A DNA stretch of 53,725 nt from a virus, in the IMG/VR virus record IMGVR_UViG_3300032224_000518, positions 1-53,725 of that record. One strand, written 5' to 3'. Below the pieces are notes generated by a model. That model did no database searches and had not been told where the DNA came from. It saw nothing but the letters and a program-made list of their open reading frames with translations. The position numbers and the translations under genes were made by a program. The first letter of the stretch is position 1; the number at the start of each line of letters is the position of its first letter. Below, piece after piece: positions 3,190 through 10,932 of the stretch.

Positions 3190-3957
3190 ATGGCTCGTAA
3201 ATCTGCACTAGCGATAGTGGAAAGAGATAATAATGAACAACGTGAGCCCAAACCAATCGCTTCTAATCAATTAAAATTAAGATTAGACAATTTAAAAACT
3301 TTCCAACCACTAACAGAAAATCAAAAATTATTTTTCGATGCATATAAATTAGGCGATTATTTTATAGCATTACATGGTGTAGCAGGAACAGGTAAAACCT
3401 TCATTGCGTTATATAAAGCGATTGAAGAAGTATTGGATAAAAATAATCCATTTAATAAAATTATTGTAGTTCGCTCAGCAGTACAATCTCGAGAGATCGG
3501 TCATCTTCCAGGAGACGTTAATGAGAAGATGGATATCTACGAACAACCTTATCGTCAAATTTGTCATCAGTTATTTGATCGTAAAGACGCATGGGATCGT
3601 TTAGAAGAACAGGGGTATATTCAATTTATCTCAACGTCTTTTATTCGTGGTATGTCTTTTGACAATGCTATTATTATTGTTGATGAAATGCAGAATTTAA
3701 CGTATGATGAAATTGATACAGTTATGACTCGTGTTGGTCATATGTCAAAGATTATCTGGTGTGGAGATTATCGACAGACCGACCTAAATAAACGAAAGAA
3801 CGATGTTACAGGTATTTTGAAATTTTTTGATATTGCGCAGCACATGAAATCATTTACTCGCATTGAGTTTACTGTAGATGATATCGTTCGTTCATCATTG
3901 GTCAAAGATTATATCTTGGCTAAATTAAAATACGAAGATTACGAGGATAGAAAATGA
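3190..3957 (+). CDS. phoH: PhoH-like ATPase
   Basis: 255 residues, the usual length for phage PhoH. The Walker A motif GVAGTGKT is at residues 63-70, Walker B with IIIVDEMQN at 161-169, and a sensor segment with CGDYRQTD near 191-198. PhoH proteins are cytoplasmic P-loop ATPases related to the N-terminal domain of superfamily I helicases; the bacterial ones act with RNA-processing enzymes, and phage copies are widespread in marine and freshwater T4-like viruses without proven function. An AAGGA lies before the start, and the stop overlaps the endolysin start (ATGA). Confidence 0.95.
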   Translation: MARKSALAIVERDNNEQREPKPIASNQLKLRLDNLKTFQPLTENQKLFFDAYKLGDYFIALHGVAGTGKTFIALYKAIEEVLDKNNPFNKIIVVRSAVQSREIGHLPGDVNEKMDIYEQPYRQICHQLFDRKDAWDRLEEQGYIQFISTSFIRGMSFDNAIIIVDEMQNLTYDEIDTVMTRVGHMSKIIWCGDYRQTDLNKRKNDVTGILKFFDIAQHMKSFTRIEFTVDDIVRSSLVKDYILAKLKYEDYEDRK

Positions 3958-4574
3958 TAACAGGAGATCAATTTAAACACTTGTTCCCACGTGCGCAAGA
4001 TCCAGATGGATGGGCTGACGCAATGAATAATGTGTTTCCAACATACGATATTAATACACCAGAGCGTGTAGCAGCATTCCTTGCTCAGTGTGGACATGAG
4101 TCTGGTGGTTGGACAGTTTTTGAAGAAAATCTGAATTACTCAGCGCAAGGATTAAATAGCATTTTTAAGAAGTATTTCCCTACTATCGAATCTGCTACAC
4201 CTTATGCTCGTCAACCAGAAAAAATTGCTAATAAAATTTATTCAAGTCGTATGGGTAATGGTGATGAATCTTCAGGCGACGGATATAAGTTTCGTGGTCG
4301 TGGACCGATCCAGTTGACTGGTCGTGCAAACTATACTAAATTTGCACAAGAGATGTTTGACGACTGGCAAAACGTAGTAGATAATCCTGATTGGGTTACT
4401 GCTGATCGTGACTTTGCTCTTATGTCTGCAATTTGGTTTTGGAATGCAAATAAATTAAATGTGCAAGCAGACTCTGGTGATATTAAACTAATGACCAAGA
4501 AAATCAATGGTGGATACATTGGTTTAGAGGATCGTATCAAACATTATAATGAATGCATGCACTTATTGACTTAA
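3954..4574 (+). CDS. GH19 chitinase-like endolysin
   Basis: 206 residues. The glycoside hydrolase 19 fold is recognisable from the catalytic-region motif CGHESGGW (residues 46-53, with Glu49), the second acidic cluster FEENLNYSA (56-64) and the FRGRGPIQLTGRANY block (113-127). It lacks a signal peptide, so release would depend on a holin; a 3TM holin-like gene lies at 14106-14549. The protein should cleave the glycan strands of peptidoglycan at lysis. A related GH19 domain is embedded in the tail hub protein gp5 of the same phage. Start overlaps phoH by four bases. Confidence 0.9.
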   Translation: MITGDQFKHLFPRAQDPDGWADAMNNVFPTYDINTPERVAAFLAQCGHESGGWTVFEENLNYSAQGLNSIFKKYFPTIESATPYARQPEKIANKIYSSRMGNGDESSGDGYKFRGRGPIQLTGRANYTKFAQEMFDDWQNVVDNPDWVTADRDFALMSAIWFWNANKLNVQADSGDIKLMTKKINGGYIGLEDRIKHYNECMHLLT

Positions 4575-4575
4575 T

Positions 4576-5226
4576 ATGAAGACATTTATACATCATGAAT
4601 TTTCCAAACTTGAACGTATCGACTCTCCCGAAGGTAGATTATACAAAACCCCTTCGGGTAGAGCCTATCCCTCCGTTACAACAGTTACAGGATTGCACTC
4701 ACAAAAATCCATCATGGAATGGAGAAAGAAAGTTGGTGAAGAAGCAGCCAACGCAATCTCAAGTAGAGCAGCAGGAAGAGGAACTCGAATACACAATCTA
4801 TGTGAAAACTATCTCCTCGGAAATAATCCTGAAGCGGATATGTTCGACCAAGATATCTTTAAGAGTTTAATTCCTCAATTAGATTTAATAGATAATATTC
4901 ATGCATTAGAAACACCACTATTCTCGCATCATTTAGAAGTTGCAGGAACTGTTGATTGTATTGCTGAATATAAAGGTAAACTGGCTGTTATTGATTTTAA
5001 AACTTCAAGTAAGTTAAAGAATCGTGATTGGATTCATGGATATTTTATGCAGACGTCAGCATATGCTGTAATGTTTGAAGAATTGACAGGAATTCCTATC
5101 GGTAGACTTGTTGTTATTATTGGAGTGGATGATGAAGAACCACAAATCTTCGAGGAAAAACGAGATAATTGGATTAGTGGTTTCAAAGATTTACGATTGC
5201 AATATAAGCAAATAAAAAAGATTTGA
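4576..5226 (+). CDS. PD-(D/E)XK exonuclease, RecB/MGME1-like
   Basis: 216 residues. The nuclease core is visible: GRGTRIHNLCENYL (residues 68-81), then GTVDCIAEYKGKLAVIDFKTSSK (124-146) with D127, D140 and K142 as the D...DxK catalytic set, and QTSAYA (159-164) as the QxxxY motif typical of RecB-like and mitochondrial MGME1-type exonucleases. T4-like phages of this lineage use such a gene in recombination or DNA processing. It begins one base after the endolysin stop. The tmRNA promoter overlaps its last codon and stop (5223-5226). Confidence 0.85.
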   Translation: MKTFIHHEFSKLERIDSPEGRLYKTPSGRAYPSVTTVTGLHSQKSIMEWRKKVGEEAANAISSRAAGRGTRIHNLCENYLLGNNPEADMFDQDIFKSLIPQLDLIDNIHALETPLFSHHLEVAGTVDCIAEYKGKLAVIDFKTSSKLKNRDWIHGYFMQTSAYAVMFEELTGIPIGRLVVIIGVDDEEPQIFEEKRDNWISGFKDLRLQYKQIKKI

Positions 5227-5251
5227 CATAAATATAAGATTACTGTATAAT
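5223..5251 (+). promoter_or_regulatory. Perfect consensus sigma70 promoter for the tmRNA
   Basis: TTGACA (5223-5228) and TATAAT (5246-5251) are both perfect consensus hexamers with the optimal spacing of 17 bases. Transcription should begin near 5258, about 40 bases before the acceptor piece of the tmRNA. It is the strongest host-type promoter I can see in the window and may also feed the outer-membrane protein gene downstream by readthrough. Confidence 0.9.
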
Positions 5252-5259
5252 AGATATAT

Positions 5260-5333
5260 GGTAATGTGAATTGTTGTATGAAGTGAATGGAAAAGTATTC
5301 TGGACGTGGGTTCGATTCCCACCACCTCCACCA
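5260..5333 (+). ncRNA. ssrA: tmRNA acceptor piece (T arm and 3' CCA)
   Basis: A five-pair T stem (GTGGG 5306-5310 with CCCAC 5318-5322) closes the canonical loop TTCGATT (5311-5317). It is followed by the 3' acceptor strand CACCTCC (5323-5329), discriminator A (5330) and encoded CCA (5331-5333). Just upstream, GTATT (5295-5299) can pair with AGTAC in the coding piece (near 5441-5445) to make the long P2 helix that links the two chains. The 5' end is the estimated transcription start. Confidence 0.9.
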
Positions 5334-5412
5334 TAGCATATTAGACGAACCAGTTTTGGTAGCAAACATAATTGATCGTGTAGCGAGATATTAGTGGCTA
5401 ATGTGCTATGTT
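5334..5412 (+). other. tmRNA intervening segment removed during maturation
   Basis: The segment begins and ends with an 11-base inverted repeat, TAGCATATTAG (5334-5344) and CTAATGTGCTA (5398-5408), with one G.U pair. Stacked on the acceptor stem, it makes one almost continuous helix in the precursor, which is the expected substrate for tRNA-type end processing. No gene is visible within it. Confidence 0.85.
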
Positions 5413-5580
5413 GGGGGTGACAAGGTTTCGACAGGGTAATAAGTACAAACATGGACAACTCGGTAGGCGATGACCGTAAATCAAGCAAACTAAGTAAATG
5501 CAAACGACTCTGTCTACGCATTAGCAGCCTAAACACTGCTTAGGGTTTCGGTAACTTTCCTCGTAACAGAATAAGTTACC
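5413..5580 (+). ncRNA. ssrA: tmRNA coding piece with tag ANDSVYALAA
   Basis: GGGGGTG (5413-5419) is the 5' acceptor strand, followed by the D-arm-like signature GGTTTCGACAGGG. A stem CGGT/ACCG (5461-5464 with 5473-5476) fits the position of pseudoknot 1. The resume codon GCA at 5500 opens a ten-codon frame, ANDSVYALAA, ending in TAA at 5530-5532; with the alanine carried by the tmRNA itself the tag is A-ANDSVYALAA. The stop codon lies in the helix CCTAA/TTAGG, as in bacterial tmRNAs. The 3' end is set at the last hairpin and is approximate. Confidence 0.9.
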
Positions 5581-5587
5581 AAGTTTT
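5550..5587 (+). terminator. Hairpin with T tract after the tmRNA
   Basis: GGTAACTT (5550-5557) and AAGTTACC (5573-5580) form an eight-pair stem with a 15-base loop, followed by AAGTTTTT. It may act as a terminator, as the 3' structure of the tmRNA coding piece, or both. The outer-membrane protein gene starts 28 bases after its base, so incomplete termination would let that gene share the tmRNA promoter. Confidence 0.55.
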
Positions 5588-5607
5588 TAATTTTAAAAGG
5601 AAATAGT

Positions 5608-6051
5608 ATGAAAAAATTAGTTCTAGTAGCTGCATTAATGGCAGCATTTTCTGCACAAGCAGTTGAAGTTGGTGTGAATGGTAGCACCGATACTGCTAAC
5701 ACAGATCGCACTGGTTATGGTATAACTGTTGGTCAGAAGTTTGATAAAGTTGGTGTAACAGCTGGTTTTGATCGTTACACTAAAGGTACTGACCTTGACA
5801 AATACACCTTGATGGGTTCTTATGATGTAGCTAAGGTTGGTACTGCAACAGTTGCAGTTAAAGCTGGTGTTGCATATCTAAACCAGAAAACTGGTAATGA
5901 TGGTTATGCAGGTTTGGTTGGTGCAGGTGTTTCTATTCCTGTTACTAAACAAGTAGCTGCAACTGTTGACTATCGTTATCAAGCTGGTCAAAGCAGAGTT
6001 AATAATTTAGATGGTAGTACTGTTTCTGCTGGTCTGAAATACTCTTTCTAA
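5608..6051 (+). CDS. Phage-encoded outer-membrane beta-barrel protein
   Basis: 147 residues. Residues 1-18 are a textbook Sec signal peptide (MKKLVLVAALMAAFSAQA, cleavage after AQA). The mature part of about 129 residues is made of alternating-residue strands with short turns, enough for an eight-stranded barrel, and ends in Lys-Tyr-Ser-Phe, the C-terminal aromatic signal recognised by the BAM machinery. It resembles small OmpA/OmpW/opacity-type barrels of betaproteobacteria. By analogy with phage Lom and similar proteins, it may alter the infected cell surface, for example to block superinfection; that role is inference. AAAAGGAAA precedes the ATG. No promoter of its own is seen after the tmRNA hairpin. 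Confidence 0.85.
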   Translation: MKKLVLVAALMAAFSAQAVEVGVNGSTDTANTDRTGYGITVGQKFDKVGVTAGFDRYTKGTDLDKYTLMGSYDVAKVGTATVAVKAGVAYLNQKTGNDGYAGLVGAGVSIPVTKQVAATVDYRYQAGQSRVNNLDGSTVSAGLKYSF

Positions 6052-6060
6052 GGATATAAC

Positions 6061-6243
6061 ATGAAGACAATTATCTTACTTACTGCTTTAACATTTTCTC
6101 TTTCAACATTTGCTGCTGAACCAGCAAAACCTGCAAAGAAAGAAGAAACAAATTGCGTAACAAAGGACAAGAAAGGTAATTGTCCTCCTGCACCAAAGTC
6201 AGCCAAGCCGACTCCAAAGAAAAAAGCTGAAGCGACTAAATAA
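6061..6243 (+). CDS. Small secreted Lys/Pro/Ala-rich protein
   Basis: 60 residues. The first 18 (MKTIILLTALTFSLSTFA) are a Sec signal peptide. The mature peptide of about 42 residues is very basic, rich in Lys, Pro and Ala, and has two cysteines ten residues apart around TKDKKGN, which could form a disulphide in the periplasm. It lies nine bases after the outer-membrane barrel gene with AAGGA before the start, so both proteins would be exported together. I do not recognise it; a partner for the barrel or a peptidoglycan-associated peptide are possibilities. Confidence 0.7.
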   Translation: MKTIILLTALTFSLSTFAAEPAKPAKKEETNCVTKDKKGNCPPAPKSAKPTPKKKAEATK

Positions 6244-6308: not shown

Positions 6309-6581
6309 ATGTCAAACATGACTCCGTTCGAGATTCGCCTTGAACTATTAAAAATGGCGAAAGACATGCTTAACGATGACTACTACGGTAAGCGTGAAGT
6401 AATTAGCAATAGTTGGCATGCTAAACTAGAAATTGCTAAAATCAATGGTGGTGAGTTACCTGAACATCCAGGATTTCCAGCTTACCCATCAGAAACCGAA
6501 ATCATTGCAAAGGCTCAGACCCTAAATGGTTTTGTTTCAAACATCCCACTAGATACAAAGACTAGCAAAAAGTCCACCTGA
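6309..6581 (+). CDS. Conserved T4-like phage protein of unknown function
   Basis: 90 residues. It begins MSNMTPFEIRLELLKMAKDML, a pattern I associate with a small conserved protein of marine T4-like phages. Most of the first half is amphipathic helix, followed by a Pro-rich segment (LPEHPGFPAYPSETEII) and a helix. There is no signal peptide or membrane segment. A strong AGGAG precedes the ATG. It is followed by a clear terminator, so it closes the transcription unit that began at the tmRNA promoter. Confidence 0.75.
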   Translation: MSNMTPFEIRLELLKMAKDMLNDDYYGKREVISNSWHAKLEIAKINGGELPEHPGFPAYPSETEIIAKAQTLNGFVSNIPLDTKTSKKST

Positions 6582-6638: not shown

Positions 6639-7190
6639 ATGCGAGTAACATATAAAAATATACTTTTAATTATACTAGCACTAATAACATTAACATCGAT
6701 ATTCACTTATTCTGAAACTACACGAAAGTACTTGAATATTAAATATACTGAATTGACAACCGATACTCAAAAACAGATCGATTGTCTTGCTCAAAACATT
6801 TACTATGAAGCTGGATATGAACCAGTAGAAGGTAGAGTTGCAGTAGCACTAGTTACATTAAATCGTGTTAACGATCAAAGATTTCCTAAAGACATTTGTG
6901 GAGTCGTTAAACAGAAAACAACTTCAGTCTGTCAGTTTTCGTGGTTCTGTTCCACACCAAAAATTTCAAACAAAACTGCATACGATGAGTCTTTACAGAC
7001 TGCATTGTGGGTTTATGCAAATTATGAAATTTTAGAGGACATTACCAAAGGTGCGATATACTATCATGCGGATTACGTTAATCCAAGATGGAAGTTAGAG
7101 AAGACTACCCAAATCGGTAGACATATATTTTATAAGGATTACAATAATGATGCAAAAACTGAATCTCGCAATAAAGGAAGAGCAATCTAG
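6639..7190 (+). CDS. SleB-like cell wall hydrolase, membrane-anchored
   Basis: 183 residues. Residues 8-24 are a hydrophobic segment acting as signal anchor. From residue 49 the Hydrolase_2/SleB fold is recognisable: CLAQNIYYEAGYEPVEGR (49-66) with the likely catalytic Glu58, VAVALVTLNRV (67-77), CQFSWFC (98-104), YYHADYVNPRW (141-151) and IGRHIFYK (159-166). These enzymes are lytic transglycosylases or amidases acting on peptidoglycan. The anchor would place it on the periplasmic side of the inner membrane; a role in lysis or in local wall remodelling is inferred. A GGAGAAAT sequence precedes the ATG. It overlaps clpP by 44 bases. Confidence 0.85.
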   Translation: MRVTYKNILLIILALITLTSIFTYSETTRKYLNIKYTELTTDTQKQIDCLAQNIYYEAGYEPVEGRVAVALVTLNRVNDQRFPKDICGVVKQKTTSVCQFSWFCSTPKISNKTAYDESLQTALWVYANYEILEDITKGAIYYHADYVNPRWKLEKTTQIGRHIFYKDYNNDAKTESRNKGRAI

Positions 7191-7704
7191 TCATTCGTTT
7201 TATCTGTTAATGGATGAAATTAGTGTGGCAACAGTAAAGCCAGCTGTAGAATGGATTATGGAAGCAAACTTTACAGATGAGCGACCTGATATGCTTAACC
7301 TGTTGATTACTTCTCCAGGTGGCGATCTAAATGCTGCTTTTGCATTGGTAGATGTTATGAGAGGATCAGCTGTTCCTATTAGGACAGTTGGTCTCGGACA
7401 AATTGCTTCAGCAGGATTGATGATTTTTATTGCTGGAACAAAAGGGCAAAGAATGTTAACACCAAACACCTCTATTCTATCTCATCAATATTCTTGGGGA
7501 GCATTTGGTAAAGAACATGAATTATTTGCTCAAGTTAAAGAGTTTGACTTGACAACAAAGAGAATGATTGCTCACTATAAAAAGTGTACTGGATTATCTG
7601 AACAAAAAATTCGTGAGGTATTACTCCCACCACAAGACGTATGGTTGGGTTCTTTAGAAGCAAAAAAATTAGGGATATGCGACGATGTTAAAGACCTTAA
7701 GTAA
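7147..7704 (+). CDS. clpP: ClpP-like serine protease
   Basis: 185 residues, typical length for ClpP. The oxyanion strand TSPGGD is at residues 55-60, the nucleophile Ser88 in GQIASAG (84-90), His113 in LSHQYSWG, and the third residue is probably Asp164 in PPQDVW. The active site is therefore complete. ClpP normally forms a barrel fed by a AAA+ unfoldase, presumably the host's here. It is notable next to a phage tmRNA, whose tag sends proteins to Clp proteases; phage ClpP copies are otherwise known as prohead-type or host-takeover proteases. Start taken at the first of two consecutive ATGs, with AGGAT upstream. Confidence 0.9.
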   Translation: MMQKLNLAIKEEQSSHSFYLLMDEISVATVKPAVEWIMEANFTDERPDMLNLLITSPGGDLNAAFALVDVMRGSAVPIRTVGLGQIASAGLMIFIAGTKGQRMLTPNTSILSHQYSWGAFGKEHELFAQVKEFDLTTKRMIAHYKKCTGLSEQKIREVLLPPQDVWLGSLEAKKLGICDDVKDLK

Positions 7705-9021: not shown

Positions 9022-9196
9022 TGTTTGGATGGCTGTTGTAACTGCTTTTGCTTTTATTGCTATTTGGGGAACTTTACTCATAGCAATCCCAAAACATGGC
9101 GTAGTAGTATACAACTGTTCTCTGGCAGAAATATCTCCTGATTATCCAGTTGAAGTTAAAAATGAATGTAGGAAAATAAATAGTGGACGGATTTAA
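9014..9196 (+). CDS. Small membrane protein between gp33 and gp59
   Basis: 60 residues. Residues 5-25 form one transmembrane helix (VWMAVVTAFAFIAIWGTLLIAI), followed by a periplasmic or cytoplasmic part with the segment YNCSLAEISPDYPVEVKNECRK, a pattern seen in other T4-like phages. Two cysteines could pair if it is outside the cytoplasm. It overlaps gp33 by eight bases and gp59 by fourteen. Function unknown. Confidence 0.7.
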   Translation: MSNVWMAVVTAFAFIAIWGTLLIAIPKHGVVVYNCSLAEISPDYPVEVKNECRKINSGRI

Positions 9197-9797
9197 AGCG
9201 TATAAGTATTACATGGCTGTTAAGTTGCATTTCACTAAAGATAATTTTGATGTATTTAAGAATCGTGGAAACATCAAAGGAACTCGTGAAGCATTTAATG
9301 CCAGAAATGATCGTTATGTCTTTGAAAAGTTGGCACGTAAGTATCCAGTTGATAAAGACATAATTCAATATTATGTAGCTAACTTTGCTTATGGAAGCGA
9401 TACTGCAGTTTACTCTCAGTCTGAAGCCGAACAAAACTTACAAGAATGGAATAGACGTAAACAGTCAATTACTAAAATATTCTCTGATGATTGCAATAAG
9501 ATTCTATTAGACGCTTGCAAGAATAAAATTAAATCAGATGGTATTTTAAACTTGACAAATAAAGGATATTGTAGTATACTTAAATTATTCCTTGGTAATC
9601 AGATATCTCTGGAGACCATTCGAATCATTGATGATATGTTACCTGTGGTTCATTCATGGAAACGAAACGATTCAATGTTATTGTTATGGGAAAACGATAT
9701 TCGAAGGATTGAAAAATCCAAAGGGTTCGTGAAGTATGATAGCGAGAAAGTTATAAAAGTTTTTAACAACTTTATGGAAGAAGTAAAAGAGTTATAA
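9183..9797 (+). CDS. gp59: gp59 loader of the gp41 replicative helicase
   Basis: 204 residues, close to T4 gp59 (217). The GTG start at 9183 is chosen because translation from it gives DGFKAYKYYMAVKLHF, which matches the family N-terminus, and AGGAAAA lies at a suitable distance. Downstream segments such as NARNDRYVFEKLARKYP and DIIQYYVANFAYG correspond to the N-terminal HMG-like helices of gp59, and the C-terminal half is helical. gp59 recruits gp41 helicase to forks and recombination intermediates coated with gp32, encoded two genes downstream. A consensus promoter lies inside it. Confidence 0.88.
   Translation: MDGFKAYKYYMAVKLHFTKDNFDVFKNRGNIKGTREAFNARNDRYVFEKLARKYPVDKDIIQYYVANFAYGSDTAVYSQSEAEQNLQEWNRRKQSITKIFSDDCNKILLDACKNKIKSDGILNLTNKGYCSILKLFLGNQISLETIRIIDDMLPVVHSWKRNDSMLLLWENDIRRIEKSKGFVKYDSEKVIKVFNNFMEEVKEL
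9552..9580 (+). promoter_or_regulatory. Sigma70-like promoter inside gp59, upstream of gp32
   Basis: TTGACA (9552-9557) and TATACT (9575-9580) are spaced by 17 bases. It would add transcription of the small acidic gene at 9799 and of gp32 over that of the upstream genes. T4 gene 32 likewise has several promoters within the upstream genes. Within a coding region this could be chance, but both boxes and the spacing are close to ideal. Confidence 0.55.
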
Positions 9798-10026: not shown

Positions 10027-10932
10027 ATGGATATTAGTACTCTACGCAAAATGCGCACGTCAGACTTCGGAAAAATCTCTGGAGAATTTGACAAAATCTC
10101 AAACCCCCAATCTGAATCAAAGTCATTCACAGACGATCGCTTTTGGCGTCTTGAAGCAGACAAAGCTGGCAATGGTACAGCAACGATTCGATTCCTCCCA
10201 CGTGTTGAAGGCGATGAACTCCCATGGGTTCGTATCTTCTCTCACGGATTCCAAGGTCCAACTGGCAAATGGTATATCGAGAATAGTTTGACTACTCTTG
10301 GTGAAAACGATCCTGTAGGTGAGTTAAATACCAAATTGTGGAACTCTGGTTCTGATGCTAACAAAGAAATTGCTCGTAAGCAGAAACGTAAACTTGGTTT
10401 CACTGCTAACGTGTTGATTATCTCTGATCCTAAGCATCCAGAGAATGAAGGACAAGTTCGCTTGTTCAAATTTGGTAAGAAAATCTTCGACAAGATTATG
10501 GACAAGGCTCGTCCAACATTCGAAGATGAGAAGCCAGTAAATGTGTTCGACTTCTGGGAAGGCGCAAACTTTAAATTGCGTATGCGTAAGAAAGATGGTT
10601 TTACTAACTATGATGAATCATCATTTAGTGACCCAACTCCTGTTGCTAGTAGTGATGAAGAAATTCTTGCTATCGCTAACAAGCAACATAAACTTTCTGA
10701 ATTCACAGACCGTAAGAACTTTAAGTCTTATGAAGAATTAAAACAGAAACTTGAGCAAGTATTGAGTGGTGATTCTTTCACTAACAAGACAGCTGCTCAA
10801 ATGTCTGAAGAAGATCGTCCTGTAGCAGCAGCACCAACTTTTGCTTCTAAGCCAGCACCAACTCCATCAAAGTCAATTGACGAAGATGAAGATGTTATGT
10901 CTTATTTTGAAAAAATCGCTAAGGAAGATTAA
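10027..10932 (+). CDS. gp32: gp32 single-stranded DNA-binding protein
   Basis: 301 residues, the length of T4 gp32. The N-terminus (ISTLRKMR) corresponds to the LAST-like basic segment used for cooperativity. The core from about residue 38 has the gp32 OB-fold pattern (FWRLEADKAGNGTATIRFLP, then WVRIFSHGFQGP and KWYIENSLTTLG), and the C-terminus is acidic (DEDEDVMSYFEKIAKED), where T4 gp32 contacts partner proteins. The Cys/His zinc site of T4 gp32 is missing: no cysteines are present in the protein. That loss is also common in cyanophage gp32. AAAGGAAA precedes the ATG; a strong terminator follows. Confidence 0.95.
   Translation: MDISTLRKMRTSDFGKISGEFDKISNPQSESKSFTDDRFWRLEADKAGNGTATIRFLPRVEGDELPWVRIFSHGFQGPTGKWYIENSLTTLGENDPVGELNTKLWNSGSDANKEIARKQKRKLGFTANVLIISDPKHPENEGQVRLFKFGKKIFDKIMDKARPTFEDEKPVNVFDFWEGANFKLRMRKKDGFTNYDESSFSDPTPVASSDEEILAIANKQHKLSEFTDRKNFKSYEELKQKLEQVLSGDSFTNKTAAQMSEEDRPVAAAPTFASKPAPTPSKSIDEDEDVMSYFEKIAKED

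Follow-up and report, generated by a model that had tools for sequence, protein, structure and literature searches.

The window analysed here, 53,725 bp of DNA from a virus record, is linear and represents a fragment of the genome of an aquatic T4-like myovirus. Its baseplate protein gp6 is most similar, at 38–40% identity, to those of Pelagibacter phage HTVC008M, Methylophilales phage Melnitz and Pelagibacter phage Mosig, all of which are filed under Kyanoviridae. Among these cultured relatives, the host of Melnitz is OM43 and that of Mosig and HTVC008M is SAR11. An intact circularly permuted tmRNA gene occupies positions 5223–5589 (+), including its promoter, and sits inside a phage operon with phage genes directly on both sides. 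The upstream genes encode a PhoH-like protein (3190–3957, +; PF02562, E = 8.5e-45; phrog_170, E = 1.2e-82), a GH19-type endolysin (3954–4574) and a PD-(D/E)XK exonuclease (4576–5226, +; phrog_298, E = 4.9e-71). The downstream genes encode a small outer-membrane beta-barrel protein whose start resembles a signal peptide (5608–6051), a 60-aa exported-looking protein (6061–6243), a SleB-type hydrolase (6639–7190), a ClpP-like serine protease (7147–7704, +; PF00574, E = 1.7e-27), the DNA helicase loader gp59 (9183–9797, +; phrog_269, E = 6.5e-43) and the single-strand DNA-binding protein gp32 (10027–10932, +; phrog_224, E = 3.4e-104). PhoH, the exonuclease, gp59 and gp32 are the conserved neighbours, and the ClpP-like frame lies 1.6 kb downstream of the tmRNA, as had been stated in a preliminary description of the sequence. 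The locus is flanked by two cell-wall hydrolases of different families, the GH19-type endolysin and the SleB-type enzyme. The barrel and 60-aa genes lie between the tmRNA and a conserved gene at 6309; elsewhere the barrel gene was seen only in the closest relative (L451, 62% identity), which marks it as an insertion specific to this lineage, perhaps one acting at the host surface or in superinfection.

The tmRNA gene is preceded by a sigma70-type promoter (TTGACA-17-TATAAT, 5223–5251, +) that matches the consensus at 12/12 positions and so deserves the word “perfect” given to it previously. The acceptor piece (5272–5333, +), delimited by the RF04321 and RF01850 alignments and by ARAGORN, contains the 5′ strand of P2, the T arm (5306–5322, +), the acceptor 3′ strand CACCUCC (5323–5329, +), A73 (5330, +) and an encoded CCA (5331–5333, +). 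It is followed by a precursor loop of 79 nt (5334–5412, +), which is predicted to be excised and which, folded alone or as part of the full transcript, is closed by a stem of 11 pairs (5334–5344/5398–5408, +), or 13 counting inner pairs. The 5′ part of the coding piece (5413–5499, +; Rfam alignment and ARAGORN) begins with the acceptor 5′ strand GGGGGUG (5413–5419, +), which forms seven pairs with 5323–5329, G3.U70 among them, and continues through the D-loop GGUUUCGAC (+; Rfam alignment and ARAGORN), the 3′ strand of P2, a PK1-like hairpin and the resume region. The tag frame called by ARAGORN (5500–5532, +) reads ANDSVYALAA followed by a stop codon, and thus has a hydrophobic Ala-Ala end. 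A 3′ hairpin, GGUAACUU...AAGUUACC, followed by a U run (5550–5589, +; stem 5550–5557/5573–5580) was recognized from the sequence and its fold and is the probable end of the coding piece and terminator; it is missing from the terminator-scan list because its loop exceeds the limit of the scan. The P2 pairing is present in the Rfam structural alignment. Every part named in the preliminary description was recovered, namely the seven-pair acceptor stem, G3.U70, A73, CCA, T arm, P2, the tag and the 11-pair loop stem, and the gene holds the full set of alanine-identity features. The single-sequence fold is weakly unusual compared with shuffles (z = −1.8), and the structural evidence is therefore that of the covariance models and of comparison.

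Both covariance models, whose use had been proposed along with the initial call, score well above their gathering thresholds and are covered over their full length. RF04321 (tmRNA_permuted) matches 5272–5532 with 140.3 bits (gathering 47; E = 1.4e-27) and RF01850 (beta_tmRNA) matches 5209–5589 with 124.3 bits (gathering 84; E = 1.7e-37). The gene is permuted, as the acceptor piece lies 5′ of the coding piece and the score passes the RF04321 threshold, and it is beta-type, as RF01850 is the top-scoring member of clan CL00001. A comparison of T loops agrees, with the window carrying the beta kind, UUCGAUU, versus GGCGGUA or GGCAGUA in the alpha kind. ARAGORN calls a single gene in the 53.7-kb window, a permuted tmRNA at 5241–5623 with the tag ANDSVYALAA, and no tRNA genes. 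The tmRNA is complete and single-copy, and the window holds no second acceptor fragment. A standard one-piece tmRNA was also considered and rejected, as none of 50 related records gave an RF00023 match above the cut-off. The covariance-model scores, together with conservation across 47 distinct related copies, rule out chance.

These 47 distinct phage copies come from the same locus, a few of them from contigs that are truncated on the 5′ side of the gene, and these were assigned by their downstream neighbours. Every one of the seven acceptor and five T-arm pairs is intact in 47/47 copies, with compensatory changes: acceptor pair 5 is GC, AU or CG, acceptor pair 6 is UA, AU or CG, and T pair 2 is UA, AU, GC or CG. 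G3.U70 and A73 are each found in 47/47 copies, and 44 of them encode CCA. For the loop-closing stem, the median is 11 pairs compared to a mean of 2.8 in shuffles, and a best promoter score of at least 10 upstream of the acceptor piece was obtained for 16/47 relatives compared to 6% of shuffles. The tag ends in Ala-Ala-stop in 47/47 copies, preceded by Leu in 46, with several synonymous codons in use, indicating that the tag is selected as a peptide. The close relatives L193–L196 have CCU in place of CCA at the acceptor end, like some bacterial beta tmRNAs, and would therefore require a CCA-adding enzyme. Another subgroup at the same locus (L086, L092, L008, L026 and L003) has long tags (ANDDVYFQDYALAA and kin) and lacks the loop-closing stem; L003 and L008 also have a manA RNA motif near the tmRNA.

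About 50 distinct records share the gene order PhoH – (endolysin) – PD-(D/E)XK exonuclease – tmRNA – ... – gp59 – gp32, a count made after removing repeat cuts of one contig and including records too short to hold every gene. In every syntenic record the exonuclease precedes the tmRNA. Three cultured phages, Melnitz, Mosig and HTVC008M, have a permuted tmRNA at this locus, with the late-transcription factor gp33 coming after it, and the window shares the Melnitz-type arrangement, in which the tmRNA lies between the exonuclease and the late-transcription/gp59 block. The HTVC008M gene (L466, 7121–7462; core at 145161–145370; tag ANFNEYALAA) is not annotated in its GenBank record. That close relatives keep the tmRNA at the same position makes it a real, conserved phage gene. 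The view that a phage encodes this permuted tmRNA is thereby upheld, by the phage genes on both flanks and by the same locus in many phage records, and the suspicion of misassembly raised with it is removed, since some 50 records hold a permuted tmRNA just 3′ of the same exonuclease.

A permuted tmRNA over the cut-off was found in 16/50 gp6-bearing records, including 10/10 of those of at least 80 kb, two of which had been chosen for their tmRNA. Judged from coordinates, a tmRNA is present in 14/14 of the gp6 relatives that were found independently and extend 19 kb or more upstream of gp6. The other 34 of the 50 records have no tmRNA over the cut-off and all have at most 18.8 kb upstream of gp6; these apparent absences arise because the tmRNA site is outside or at the edge of the records. 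The closest relative (gp6 89% identical) starts within the outer-membrane gene just 3′ of the tmRNA site.

We think it probable that the gene is functional, belongs to the phage and encodes a beta-type two-piece tmRNA (ssrA) that provides additional capacity for ribosome rescue in the infected cell, which would be the most economical function. We infer expression, processing, charging and benefit along the following lines. One precursor would be transcribed from the early sigma70 promoter, and host tRNA-processing enzymes would excise the loop, as in known permuted tmRNAs, leaving the acceptor and coding pieces joined via the acceptor stem and P2. Host alanyl-tRNA synthetase would charge the RNA with alanine via G3.U70, and host SmpB, if compatible, and EF-Tu would bind the charged form. 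The tmRNA would then enter ribosomes stalled on broken mRNAs and append ANDSVYALAA, freeing the ribosome and passing the tagged fragment to host ClpXP, assuming that the tag is compatible with ClpX. The phage would gain rescue capacity while the mRNA of the infected cell is broken down. The SmpB profile PF01668 had no match in the window, in 12 related viral records (four of 126–171 kb), in Melnitz or in Mosig; the same profile detected SmpB in bacterial genome G252 and in 10/14 control genomes. With no SmpB of its own found, the phage system does not appear to be self-contained, and host SmpB would thus be needed.

It had also been suggested that tagged proteins are redirected to the phage ClpP, and the tmRNA could in that case mark selected proteins for the ClpP-like protease encoded 1.6 kb downstream, for degradation of host proteins or recycling of amino acids. 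Selective tagging has been proposed for Melnitz (PMC9004378), and 27 listed loci, some of which are repeat cuts of the same contig, have a ClpP-like gene close to the tmRNA. All of these loci belong to freshwater-type relatives, a shorthand for the relatives of the window and not a record-by-record habitat assignment. However, Melnitz, Mosig and HTVC008M keep the tmRNA locus, and no ClpP homologue was found in the stretches of these phages that were searched, which included the neighbourhood of each tmRNA. Furthermore, the tag ends in a generic ALAA, an ordinary bacterial degron, and SleB and other unrelated genes also lie in the neighbourhood. The redirection proposal therefore lacks support, and we regard it as unlikely.

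The RNA may instead act as a decoy, inhibiting host trans-translation by titrating away host SmpB, EF-Tu or alanyl-tRNA synthetase. This has been suggested for the RNA of mycobacteriophage DS6A, a tag-less tRNA-like domain, and a molecule similar to such a phage RNA strongly inhibits tmRNA (PMC4131195). The failure to find a phage SmpB in the viral records searched would fit such a role. A decoy needs no tag, however, and here the frame, the Leu-Ala-Ala end and the stop are kept in 46–47/47 copies via synonymous codons. Selection on a gene does not imply that it acts by rescue, and much of this conservation would also be expected of a regulatory RNA or a decoy. Because both halves are conserved, working trans-translation is favoured over a decoy, to which we give only a slim chance.

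It is very improbable that the gene was recently acquired from a host, is what remains of a prophage attachment site or results from chimeric assembly: tmRNA genes are common integration sites (PMC11915505) and permuted tmRNAs do occur in the sampled Burkholderiales genomes, but the gene has immediate phage genes on both flanks, is complete and single-copy with no second acceptor fragment in the window, recurs at its locus in independent contigs and cultured phages, which excludes a chimera, has viral copies as its nearest tree neighbours, and finds only partial best matches (75–80% identity over 81–145 bases) in 399 sampled Burkholderiales genomes. A permuted beta tmRNA was over the cut-off in 6/150 sampled Burkholderiaceae genomes, so that this form is rare in that family. 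A DNA search of phages with the window gene returned only short acceptor-piece matches, in Stenotrophomonas phages.

In the tree with bacterial tmRNAs, the window copy sits in a clade made up solely of viral copies (34 rows, 96/82), and three bacterial sequences are placed weakly inside a second viral group. A tree had been proposed as a means of finding the donor host, and it groups the window with viral and not with bacterial copies. The viral clade and the partial bacterial matches argue for long residence in phages over recent capture. By Rfam type, the freshwater-type copies are beta and Melnitz is alpha, and in the best tree the copies of the three marine phages Melnitz, Mosig and HTVC008M group with alphaproteobacterial tmRNAs (100/95). 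With only about 138 columns in the tree, the data neither reject (p-AU = 0.10) nor demonstrate a single clade uniting every phage copy from this locus. The tmRNA may be an ancestral core gene of a whole T4-like aquatic phage branch, held at one fixed locus beside the late-transcription/replication block, with alpha- and beta-type copies in the same place that were swapped in place or drifted with host shifts; we consider the chances of this evenly balanced. If true, trans-translation would be a standing fitness function of these phages and not an occasional captured host gene.

Two-piece phage tmRNAs are a known kind, as that of Melnitz was published in 2022 with the same possible roles (PMC9004378). 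Two-piece forms make up 53/133 unique phage tmRNA structures, 50 of the 53 aquatic (PMC9004378), and the tmRNA database holds 79 phage sequences (PMC11915505). The additions here are a beta-type phage lineage, a fixed locus common to alpha- and beta-type copies, of which we found no prior report in an incomplete literature search, and strong comparative evidence of selection. That many phages keep the gene at one locus, with selection visible on the tag as well as on the tRNA-like part, argues for ribosome rescue being important in infection, and the cultured relatives Melnitz, Mosig and HTVC008M make this role testable.

Compared with known systems, the window is close to these three cultured phages, sharing the permuted gene and the locus PhoH – exonuclease – tmRNA – late transcription factor, and, in Melnitz and Mosig, the lack of a detectable SmpB. 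Melnitz differs in being alpha-type by Rfam and in having a glutamine riboswitch at the tmRNA 3′ end, whereas the window is beta-type with no riboswitch match and has a ClpP-like gene nearby in its relatives. Stenotrophomonas phage vB_SmaM_Bhz51 (Menderavirus; L456, 2472–2845) and Xanthomonas phage Rb1 (L459, 1972–2400) also have permuted tmRNAs with a beta-like T loop, but belong to another phage group and carry the gene at another locus, a tRNA cluster in the Stenotrophomonas phage; the nearest tree neighbour of their tmRNAs is another viral copy outside the group of the window. Gammaproteobacteria of the kind that host Bhz51 and Rb1 are expected to have a one-piece tmRNA, and if they do, the gene forms of phage and host would differ. 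The tmRNAs of mycobacteriophages (Bxz1 group, Wildcat) and Bacillus phage G have the standard one-piece order and belong to unrelated phages. What they share with the window is a phage-borne ssrA (PMC4131195). The two-piece tmRNA of betaproteobacteria (RF01850) resembles that of the window in its full-model match, its AND...ALAA tag and its UUCGAUU T loop; the window copy is distinguished by being phage-borne, by a precursor loop of 79 nt versus 3–54 in those compared, and by an RF01850 score of 124.3 bits versus 139 to 328 in the bacterial members tested.
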